Under the pieces are notes generated by a model. It was not told the DNA's origin. It did no database searches and saw only the letters and a list, made by a program, of their open reading frames with translations. A DNA stretch of 64,000 nt. It comes from Planctomycetota bacterium (lineage in GTDB: Bacteria > Planctomycetota > Planctomycetia > Pirellulales > Thermoguttaceae). The position numbers and the translations under genes were made by a program. The DNA is taken from the NCBI GenBank assembly GCA_029550925.1, contig JAKPGL010000037.1:1-64000 (forward strand), given 5' to 3'. Below are positions 6,619-45,305 of the stretch, one piece after another (within the stretch, counting starts at the first letter, position 1; every line of letters starts with the position of its first letter).

Positions 6619-8178
6619 TTACACATTCCCTATCCAGCTGAGCCGATACATCCGGGCAAAGGCTTTGAACCGCCGGGCGTCGCCTCGGTCGCCGCAAAAG
6701 AACACCGGATGCGGCCCGGCATACGCCTGGCACACATCGTCCAGACCCTCCAGTTCTACCAGCACCCGGGTGGCACAACCGCCGGTCGGCGGACAGCCGG
6801 GCGAACTGACCACCTTGCCACGCCAACAGCAGAGGCTATCCTTGCCCACATTATACCGGACCAAAAGCACCGGCTCGCCCGGCTTCCACTCGACGTCCAA
6901 AGCGGGCGTCTTGGGCAACTGATGGAAAAACGGCCGGACCATGAACTTCTGCGAAGGGCCCTCCGGCCCGTGCAGCTTCCAGGCACAGGTACAGTGGGCG
7001 CCGAAATAGAGGTTTTCGCTGGTGTCGAACTCCGGGTTGTGTTGGAAGCCGGCCCGGTCCAGAAGCCATCGCCCCAGCATCAGAGTCAGGGTCGGGTCCA
7101 GGTGGTTTTCACAGCCACAGGGAAACAATTGCCCATTGTGCCATGCGAAACTATAACAGGGTTTCCGATGTTTGAGCATCAGGCATTGGATGGTAATGGC
7201 GTCGGCCCCATACCGCTGGATCATCCGACGCACCGCATGGTGGGCCCGGATGGCATCGACAAACGCCTCGTCGGCCACATCCATTACCCGCTCCGCTTGC
7301 TTTTTGAATGCCATGGCCTCCTGCTGAATGGCCGGGGTGGCTTCGATAGCGTCGAACGCAGCGTTGAACTCCTCGGCTGGGATGGCCACGATCTCCACGC
7401 CAAGCGTCTTTTCCACATCTTGGGTCATCTGTCGGACGCCGCCGGCAATGCGGAGCAATCGGCTTTGGGCGAGCATTTTGCGGGCGTGCACCGCCCGAAG
7501 GCCCCGCTCAATCTCAGGAAAATTTTCTATCGAGTGGATGTAATAAAAACCTTCGGATTTGCGGAGCGGTTCGGGCGGCAACTGATGGTTGGCCCCCAGG
7601 GCATGATACACAATGGCCGTCGGCGCAGCCTCTGTAGCAATCCGATAGGCCGCCCCGGAAAGCGTGTTATAGAAATTGACCACCAGCACCGCATCCAACC
7701 CCGCGTCTTTCGCCTGGGCGATGAACTCTTCCAGTTTTGCTTTTTGATAGATCGGCTCAGGCCGGATGGTCATCTCCAGACCCAACTGCTGGGACAACTG
7801 TTCGATCTGGTGGGCGAACTTTTTCTGTTGCTCGGCGTACTGGAACTGGCCGCCCGGCCAGGTGAACCATTGGTGCTTGGCCCAACTATCCTCCATTTGA
7901 CCGGCCAACACCACTTCCTCCGGCGGGTAGAGAAAGACGGTCCAGATGCGGGCGGGCTTTTTTTCTTTTGGCGGCAAGAGGGGCTTTTCTCCTTCGGAGG
8001 CCGCCGCTTCCACCCAGGCGGCTTGGCTCCAAACCGCCGCCGCCCCGGCCAGGCCCGTAGAAGTCAAAAATTCTCGCCGCCCCAGAAGCAATTTCTCTTC
8101 TCCGTCAGGTAAGCGATCCTGGTTTGAGTTGTTCTTGGAAAACGCTCGATTCCCCCCGGCTTCACAAGATTCGCACAT
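6619..8178 (-). CDS. Tat-exported FucI/AraA-fold protein of unknown function
   Basis: The N-terminus carries a twin-arginine signal, GRREFLTSTGLAGAAAVW, with the arginines at residues 34-35, so the folded protein is probably exported. The remainder resembles L-fucose/L-arabinose isomerase folds. An alpha/beta N-terminal domain contains DAVLVVNFYNTLSG. A C-terminal part reads CENHLDPTLTLML, then DTSENLYFGAHCTCAWKLHGPEG, the region where isomerases bind metal through Glu, Asp and His. At 519 residues it is near the size of those isomerases plus a signal. AAAGGAG lies eight bases before the ATG. Nearby carbohydrate genes (GH51, YjbQ opposite) fit sugar use. An exported isomerase is odd, so the reaction is left open. 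Confidence 0.6.
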   Translation of the reverse strand: MCESCEAGGNRAFSKNNSNQDRLPDGEEKLLLGRREFLTSTGLAGAAAVWSQAAWVEAAASEGEKPLLPPKEKKPARIWTVFLYPPEEVVLAGQMEDSWAKHQWFTWPGGQFQYAEQQKKFAHQIEQLSQQLGLEMTIRPEPIYQKAKLEEFIAQAKDAGLDAVLVVNFYNTLSGAAYRIATEAAPTAIVYHALGANHQLPPEPLRKSEGFYYIHSIENFPEIERGLRAVHARKMLAQSRLLRIAGGVRQMTQDVEKTLGVEIVAIPAEEFNAAFDAIEATPAIQQEAMAFKKQAERVMDVADEAFVDAIRAHHAVRRMIQRYGADAITIQCLMLKHRKPCYSFAWHNGQLFPCGCENHLDPTLTLMLGRWLLDRAGFQHNPEFDTSENLYFGAHCTCAWKLHGPEGPSQKFMVRPFFHQLPKTPALDVEWKPGEPVLLVRYNVGKDSLCCWRGKVVSSPGCPPTGGCATRVLVELEGLDDVCQAYAGPHPVFFCGDRGDARRFKAFARMYRLSWIGNV

Positions 8179-41608: not shown

Positions 41609-43681
<2,073 letters not shown>

Positions 43682-44027
43682 TACCGAATTACCTCCTGCC
43701 CCCGGAAAGTACCGGCCTAGCATCTGGGAAATTTTTCCGGGGGTTCTATGATCTATCCTATCGGGTTCGGCGTGGAGGGGGAATTGGAAAAGGGATAAGC
43801 GGACGGAAATAGCCTTCTGCAGAGGGGTAATGGGTAATTAATTGGTGGGGCAGGATAAGGCGCCCGTTTTCTCAGTTTTTCAAAATTTTCGGTTTTGCCT
43901 CTTGCCAAGGGAAGTGGGAAAAGGCAAAATAAACTAGGTATCTGTGGGGAGAATGCCCGGCCGAAGCCGATCCATACCAAGCCGGGCCTGAACTCCCCGG
44001 TTGATCGATGTAGGAGAAGAGCGGACG

Positions 44028-44111
44028 ATGCACAGTCTCCGGCCTGCTACCTTTGGGTTCTACTTTTATTTTTATAGCCCGCCGGGTCGCGGGGCCGGAG
44101 GAGGTCTGTAG
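44028..44111 (+). CDS. Phe/Tyr-rich leader peptide of the DAHP-synthase attenuator
   Basis: A 27-codon reading frame starts at ATG 44028 with AGGAGA ten bases upstream and ends at TAG 44109. Residues 9-16 read FGFYFYFY: seven of eight are Phe or Tyr, the end-products of the pathway that the next gene starts. A pro/gly-rich tail follows. This is the hallmark of attenuation leaders such as pheL and trpL. It was too short for ordinary gene calling. The stop codon lies just before the hairpins described next, so ribosome position could decide which hairpin forms. Confidence 0.85.
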   Translation: MHSLRPATFGFYFYFYSPPGRGAGGGL

Positions 44112-44149
44112 CCGATAAAAACCTTCTACCAAGACCTAAAAAAGCCCCG
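44090..44149 (+). promoter_or_regulatory. Antiterminator helix of the DAHP-synthase attenuator
   Basis: CGGGGC at 44090-44095 can pair with GCCCCG at 44144-44149, and nested within it AGGTCT (44102-44107) pairs with AGACCT (44132-44137). This takes up the left arm of the terminator. A ribosome stalled on the Phe/Tyr codons (44052-44075) leaves it free; a ribosome at the stop codon (44109-44111) covers its left part. Confidence 0.7.
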
Positions 44150-44182
44150 AGACCCGTAAGGTTCTCGGGGCTTTTTGTTTTT
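44139..44182 (+). terminator. Attenuator terminator in the DAHP-synthase leader
   Basis: AAAAAGCCCCGAGA (44139-44152) and TCTCGGGGCTTTTT (44163-44176) make a perfect 14-bp stem with a ten-base loop, followed by GTTTTT. It lies 28 bases past the leader-peptide stop and about 75 bases before the DAHP-synthase ATG. Confidence 0.9.
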
Positions 44183-44255
44183 ACTGCCACAGAAATCGGT
44201 CCAAACAGTTTTTCCCCAAGTCCTTGGAAGCCTTTTACCATGGGAGGACGTAGCG

Positions 44256-45305
44256 ATGATCGTTGTGATGAGGACGGATGCCACGCCAGAGCAGATTCAG
44301 CATGTGATCCAACTGGTGCAACAGTTGGGCATGAAGGCCCATCCGATTTACGGGACGGAACGGACGGTGATCGCCGCCATTGGGTCCAAACGGGATGAAT
44401 ATCGGCAGTCGTTGGCCAGTAGTCCCGGCGTGGATTCGGTGGTGCCGATCTTGGCCCCCTACAAGGTGGCTAGCCTGGAGGTCAAGCGAGAGCGGACCGT
44501 GGTACGGGTTGGGCCGTTGTGGGTCGGCAATAGCCATCTGGGCATTATTGCCGGACCGTGTTCTGTAGAAAGCGAAGAGCAGACGCTGGCCACTGCCCGG
44601 GCCGTCAAAGCAGCCGGGGCCACCGCCCTACGCGGCGGAGCGTTCAAACCTCGGACCAGTCCCTATAGCTTCCAAGGACTCAAAGAGGATGGGTTGAAGA
44701 TTTTGGCGACGGCTCGGGCCGAGACCGGACTACCGATTGTAACCGAAGTGATGGCCGCCACCGATGTCGAACTGGTCGCCTCGTATGCCGATCTGTTGCA
44801 GATCGGCGCCCGGAACATGCAGAACTATCGGCTTTTGGAAGAGGCCGGCCAGAGCGGCAAACCGGTGCTTTTGAAACGAGGGCCAGCGGCCACCTTGGAA
44901 GAACTGCTCCTGGCCGCCGAGTATATCCTGAACACCGGTAACCAGCAGGTGATCCTTTGCGAGCGTGGCATCCGGACCTTTGAGACCCATACTCGTTACA
45001 CGCTGCCGCTGGCGAGCGTGCCCTGGCTGCATCAGCATACACACTTGCCGATCATTGTCGATCCGAGCCATGGGACCGGCCATACGGCCCTGGTGCCGGA
45101 CATGGCCGCCGCCGCGGTAGCTGCCGGTGCGGACGGCCTGATCATCGAAGTCCACCCCAACCCCGAAACCGCCCTGAGCGACGGGTACCAATCGCTCACC
45201 TTCCAGCAGTTCGCCGAGACGATGGACCTGGTACGCCGGGTGGCCGAGGCTGTCGGCAAACAGATCAACGCCCCGGAACCCGCCGAGGCCATCTGCCTGC
45301 CGTAA
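44256..45305 (+). CDS. aroF: 3-deoxy-7-phosphoheptulonate (DAHP) synthase, type I-beta with N-terminal regulatory domain
   Basis: The enzyme joins phosphoenolpyruvate and erythrose 4-phosphate as the first step of aromatic synthesis. The 349 residues have an N-terminal ferredoxin-like regulatory domain ([20 protein letters not shown] to about 70), as in Thermotoga DAHPS, then the barrel with [47 protein letters not shown] and [17 protein letters not shown] lies about eight bases before ATG 44256. A Phe/Tyr leader and attenuator precede it, so transcription is likely controlled by charged tRNA-Phe and tRNA-Tyr, while the ferredoxin-like domain probably allows allosteric control by the same amino acids. 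Confidence 0.94.

Follow-up and report, generated by a model that had tools for sequence, protein, structure and literature searches.

The window analyzed here is the whole 64-kb stretch of planctomycete DNA, and all coordinates are positions in it. A gene for a type I-beta DAHP synthase (3-deoxy-7-phosphoheptulonate synthase, DAHPS) starts with the ATG at 44256, and both NF006421 (E=2.5e-148) and TIGR01361 (E=6e-117) matched it above their cut-offs. This confirmed that the proposed attenuator stands directly ahead of the first gene of aromatic synthesis, as a previous sequence-only reading had stated. The upstream neighbor, uvrB (41609-43723), is oriented opposite to the leader, which therefore needs its own promoter. 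That reading had supposed transcripts beginning ahead of the leader, and a promoter-like site was found there, in which TTGYCA and CAAAATAAA are kept in three genus members (the window and two other species) while the flanks diverge. The leader transcript probably originates at this site. The features of the locus are listed below.

43902-43930, + strand: promoter-like site TTGCCA-17-CAAAAT, the sole sigma-70-like match in 43720-44260, probable origin of the leader transcript.
44012-44016, + strand: Shine-Dalgarno AGGAG of the leader peptide, 11 nt upstream of its ORF.
44028-44111, + strand: leader peptide ORF MHSLRPATFGFYFYFYSPPGRGAGGGL, 27 codons plus TAG, with an aromatic leader in nearly all close relatives.
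44037-44044, + strand: genus-specific long-range segment 1, CTCCGGCC, pairing with 44093-44100 in the ribosome-free fold (MFE of 44028-44176).
44052-44075, + strand: control codons TTT GGG TTC TAC TTT TAT TTT TAT (FGFYFYFY), from comparison of relatives.
44078-44082, + strand: segment 1 (CCCGC), forming a local hairpin with 44089-44093 (GCGGG), likely protector, from hairpin folds in relatives.
44083-44095, + strand: segment 2 (CGGGTCGCGGGGC), antiterminator 5' strand, from pair counts and folding.
44102-44111, + strand: inner antiterminator hairpin, 5' strand, including the leader stop codon, from folds and a permutation test.
44126-44137, + strand: inner antiterminator hairpin, 3' strand, from folds and a permutation test.
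44139-44181, + strand: intrinsic terminator, stem 44139-44152/44163-44176 and T tract to 44181, from folding and covariation.
44144-44156, + strand: segment 3, antiterminator 3' strand, from pairing, two-sided changes, and shuffles.
44243-44248, + strand: Shine-Dalgarno GGAGGA of DAHPS.
44256-45305, + strand: type I-beta DAHP synthase, the putatively regulated gene.

The 27-codon leader reported in the sequence-only reading is present with its Shine-Dalgarno sequence, and residues 9-16 read FGFYFYFY as claimed, with seven of the eight aromatic. The whole window has 1,197 small ORFs, of which 14 contain at least five aromatics per 10 residues and only the leader reaches seven. An aromatic small ORF followed by a terminator occurs just twice in this set, in the leader and at 7766-7900. 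The second candidate was rejected as a chance pairing of an aromatic ORF with a terminator-like hairpin, both antisense inside a gene.

The terminator comprises 14 consecutive pairs followed by GTTTTT, and 44112-44176 folds with an MFE of -26.9 kcal/mol (z -6.1). The perfect 14-bp stem with a T tract described earlier was thus recovered, although it begins 27 bases past the leader stop codon rather than 28. Both helices of the nested antiterminator drawn before (44090-44095/44144-44149 and 44102-44107/44132-44137) are present as well, and the full structure is larger: the main helix combines 44083-44088/44151-44156 with 44090-44095/44144-44149 into 12 pairs with one mismatch, and 44080-44160 folds into this 12-pair helix enclosing the inner hairpin at -37 kcal/mol (z -4.3). 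Since positions 44144-44152 are common to the antiterminator 3' strand and the terminator 5' arm, the two structures are mutually exclusive. As expected from this exclusion, RNAalifold on the family alignment returned the terminator and a small local hairpin and not the antiterminator, which was therefore scored on the alignment as a named structure. A local hairpin at the protector position folds in all 31 family sequences, with a predicted mean of -10.1 kcal/mol versus -7.4 kcal/mol in shuffles; in these models, 44078-44082/44089-44093 is likely the protector that a stalled ribosome would cover. The CCGGCC of the long-range segment CTCCGGCC is kept in three genus members. An Rfam 15 scan of the whole window, with the Trp, Phe, His, Thr, and Leu leaders and the T-box included, returned no family at threshold.

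As a separate observation, GGCCGGAGGAGGT at 44093-44107, after the antiterminator strand, is conserved beyond the need of the mapped pairs and looks like a strong Shine-Dalgarno sequence inside the end of the leader. It may have a role in ribosome pausing or release.

For the comparison with relatives, we collected 145 DAHPS upstream regions from same-family genomes and from named genomes found by tblastn, and applied a strict detector that requires an aromatic-dense small ORF and then a terminator 10-80 nt later. As a result, 72 of the 145 regions were positive, against 0/145 reverse strands and none in three shuffled sets; loci L038-L075 contributed 20 positives out of 38. The distance from stop codon to hairpin is mostly 24-38 nt. 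The F/Y-rich leader, for which the earlier reading had suggested a search ahead of DAHPS in relatives, is therefore conserved there with a terminator at a similar distance. Leaders of the close group end in [FYW]-F-Y-F-S-P-P-G-R-G-A-G-G-G, and aromatic leaders are kept even where the DAHPS is only ~50% identical, for example FLFTRYYYYYYYYRF. DAHPS genes of Pirellulaceae, Geobacteraceae, other Desulfuromonadales, Calditrichota, and Anaerolineae have such leaders as well. For the family of a Gemmataceae MAG, 14 of the 29 loci searched were positive, versus 0/29 reverse strands. In three close family members (L020, L030, and L035), leader and terminator are absent before an otherwise similar DAHPS.

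The antiterminator pairing was evaluated on an alignment of 31 family members. Segments 44083-44095 and 44144-44156 are paired in 92.2% of cells, and two-sided changes occur in 24 cells, compared with a shuffle average of 7.6 and with 0/500 shuffles as high. A one-column shift of the partner lowers the pairing to about 51-52%. The compensatory changes that the earlier reading proposed to look for in relatives were thus found in the antiterminator. The terminator covaries too in this alignment; however, the outer antiterminator pairs (columns 47 and 48 with 136 and 135) lie outside its 14-pair stem, and the most variable pairs (CGGGTC/GACCCG, CAGGTC/GACCTG, GAGGTC/GACCTC, and GAGGCC/GGCCTC) lie partly in its loop. 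Covariation at these places indicates that the antiterminator itself is under selection. Additionally, pairing between the leader segment and the terminator 5' arm is better within a species than across species, and the inner hairpin pairs better in its own combination than in swapped ones (0/2000 permutations in both cases, with relatedness not removed). The leader, the terminator, and the antiterminator are present and are under joint evolutionary constraint. These counts bear on a rival explanation, in which a constitutive terminator lowers basal DAHPS transcription and the aromatic ORF is an untranslated product of chance. The terminator is indeed thermodynamically dominant in the full-length RNA, but chance ORFs do not account for 72/145 occurrences against 0 in controls or for aromatic codons retained across phyla, nor does a constitutive terminator account for covariation outside its own stem, so that we judge this explanation extremely unlikely.

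The two halves of the leader evolve differently. In the first half, aromaticity is kept while F, Y, and W exchange, a behavior explained by tRNA supply and not by a fixed arrest peptide. In the second half, the L025 leader reads the same GGTCGCGGGGCCGGAGGAGG in another frame (PARSRGRRRC), the start of GGTCGCGGGGCCGGAGGAGG in L045 falls after the leader stop codon, and changes of R to C and of G-R to D-C match changes of the terminator GACC to CAACC or CAATC. It is thus the RNA rather than the peptide that is conserved after the aromatic run, where coding is incidental. The same pattern weakens the alternative of a TnaC-like arrest peptide, whose nascent chain would stall the ribosome on binding a free aromatic amino acid within the exit tunnel. 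Most family members do share an F-Y-F core followed by P-P or P-R, as such a peptide might. However, F, Y, and W differ in order and identity from genus to genus and from phylum to phylum, the C-terminal residues are frame-changed in L025 or absent in L045 and otherwise track the RNA pairing, and with the polarity of this element stalling would have to signal shortage instead of excess. A conserved peptide sequence of the TnaC kind was not found among the relatives' leaders, and we regard an arrest peptide as highly improbable.

We consider it very likely, therefore, that the element is a classical ribosome-mediated transcription attenuator for DAHP synthase. We infer control by tRNA charging as well as the start site, the size of the response, and the relative weight of Phe and Tyr. 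RNA polymerase would start near 43937 and make the leader with a ribosome behind it. When Phe-tRNA or Tyr-tRNA is short, the ribosome would stall on codons 9-14 and cover the protector strand 44078-44082, leaving segment 2 (44083-44095) free. Aided by the inner hairpin 44102-44111/44126-44137, segment 2 would pair with segment 3 (44144-44156) before the terminator 3' arm exists; with the antiterminator formed, no terminator would arise and DAHPS would be transcribed. When aromatics are plentiful, the ribosome would reach the stop codon (44109-44111), where it would block both the inner hairpin and a portion of segment 2; behind it the protector would re-form, and the terminator 44139-44176 would end transcription. 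Ribosomes would probably turn the pathway on only when Phe/Tyr run short.

Minimum free energy folds of the growing RNA with ribosome-sized masks fit this scheme. With a ribosome on F9, Y12, or Y14, the antiterminator gives the best fold over part of 44148-44170; it is never best with the ribosome at the stop codon, and without a ribosome it is best only briefly. The earlier suggestion that stalling at the aromatic codons frees the antiterminator was thus borne out in the model for codons 9-14, as was its loss at the stop. With the assumed footprint, a ribosome at the last aromatic codon (Y16) already blocks segment 2. After the whole terminator 3' arm has been made, the terminator has the lowest energy of all folds whatever the modelled state of the ribosome, so antitermination would have to be kinetic. 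The same anatomy might also be controlled mainly by Rho, pausing, or translational reinitiation and not at the intrinsic terminator. For planctomycetes, effects of leader reinitiation have been proposed where the spacing is 10-11 bp (PMC4833913), but the gap between leader stop and DAHPS start is 144 nt here, with the strong terminator in between, and we give this variant hardly any probability.

Regarding amino-acid specificity, the Phe/Tyr assignment of the sequence-only reading holds for the window's genus, whose leaders lack Trp codons, but not for most relatives, since Trp codons occur in 22 of the 31 aligned family leaders (L025 counted). The G among the control codons of the window leader is often W (TGG) or R (CGG) in relatives; several genera have GGG or CGG where most relatives have TGG, and the window's genus has GGG. 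A DAHPS tree of 26 of these family members shows four changes of the Trp label, at least three of them forced by well-supported branches. The Trp codons in most relatives' leaders suggest that the ancestral sensor was probably Phe/Tyr/Trp and that the window's genus carries a Phe/Tyr-only derivative, with the direction of change inferred.

Of 119 family genomes, 34 matched a covariance model of the element, each exactly once; the other 85 did not, and in many of these the DAHPS was only a more distant one or was not detected. Among loci not used for training (335 kb), all 19 matches were situated just upstream of DAHPS, and wherever a match had enough contig downstream, DAHPS follows. The model also matched the culturable relative Roseimaritima sediminicola (L044, E=1.4e-6). 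Scanning 294 sampled genomes of the phylum gave seven matches outside the family. A type I-beta DAHPS follows six of them, and the seventh (L170, another planctomycete family) precedes an AroG-like enzyme assigned to type I-alpha by sequence inspection. The L170 leader VNVRTGFYFGYSYFGWRQPGRRGAA on the reverse strand (about 1490-1650) contains TGFYFGYSYFGW and is followed by the terminator AAAGCCCTGAGCGATCCTCAGGGCTTTTTTT. The presence of an attenuator before a type I-alpha enzyme suggests that the switch follows the reaction, and not one enzyme subfamily.

In the window's own genome, the second DAHP synthase is of type II (PF01474, G000:C158:61704-63008), with no aromatic-dense leader near its start. 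A second PF00793 gene was set aside as a KDO8P synthase, not a DAHPS, and has no leader. No convincing similar leader was found before the prephenate dehydratase and two chorismate-binding (TrpE-like) genes.

Two further groups of leaders were observed outside the planctomycetes. In Desulfuromonadales/Geobacteraceae (L077, L081, L083, L084, L086, L087, L093, and L107), DAHPS leaders end in FYFWFGFYFRPSARG or similar, and the best hairpin often lies some 90 nt downstream instead of about 30; no description of these leaders was found in open literature. In Anaerolineae (L099 and L101) and Calditrichota (L092 and L104), aromatic leaders such as FYFYFYFGF and then terminators precede DAHPS, and those of Anaerolineae lie 450-550 nt upstream and may precede an intervening gene.

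The sequence-only reading knew of no Phe/Tyr attenuation in planctomycetes, and we likewise found no case of planctomycete amino-acid attenuation in a search of the open-access literature; a precedent exists outside planctomycetes. The element is accordingly an attenuator of a known kind, with aroR-aroF of Corynebacterium glutamicum as precedent, apparently undescribed in Planctomycetota. A wider proposal, to which we assign somewhat less than an even chance, is that it belongs to a widespread undescribed Planctomycetota class of aromatic 'OR-gate' attenuators, in which mixed Phe, Tyr, and (ancestrally) Trp codons would let a shortage of any one open the common first step. Such a class would be attached to two DAHPS subfamilies, would have been retuned by repeated loss of Trp codons, and would show coupled transcription-translation.

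The element accounts for how an enzyme of the common pathway can be tied to several end products without a repressor. A separation of transcription and translation has been claimed for the planctomycete phylum (PMC5394234; PMC6212462), and the nucleus-like reading has been disputed (PMC6554331). Since the mechanism needs a ribosome right behind RNA polymerase, the attenuator offers a genetic test of this disputed coupling. For Pirellulales and for the family of the Gemmataceae genome, the selected attenuator is independent genetic evidence of coupling. This evidence does not extend to G. obscuriglobus itself, because the large single-contig genomes in the Gemmataceae-family sample matched only with a distant DAHPS, at about 46-53% identity.

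Textbook examples of attenuators are those of the Phe, Trp, and His operons, and that of trp (trpL) works by a segment logic of 1:2, 2:3, and 3:4 coupled to translation. The window element combines the features of a leader-peptide attenuator: codons for pathway products, a Rho-independent terminator, an exclusive antiterminator, and an aromatic-pathway gene. It would share the segment logic and the coupling to translation of trpL, which, however, senses a single amino acid (Trp), whereas the window element has its predicted protector strand just after the control codons and an extra hairpin inside the antiterminator loop. E. coli pheA (pheL) and pheST likewise have a Phe-rich leader and a terminator/antiterminator switch (cited in PMC11802643), but they control Phe-branch genes, while the window leader mixes Phe and Tyr. 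The DAHPS genes of E. coli are controlled by repressor proteins (PMC11802643). In C. glutamicum, the leader aroR, which contains Phe-Tyr-Phe, lies upstream of aroF (PMC11802643; Neshat et al. 2014, cited there; Mentz et al. 2013, PMC4046766), and transcription is reported to rise under Phe limitation, with no answer to Tyr. Our control search showed that C. glutamicum also has a type II DAHPS, like the window's genome. The aroR/aroF system resembles the window element in having a Phe-Tyr-Phe leader before a DAHP synthase and in ribosome stalling that raises transcription, as it would in the window; it differs in belonging to another phylum and in the three aromatic residues named, versus seven in the window leader, and the likeness is one of functional analogy only.
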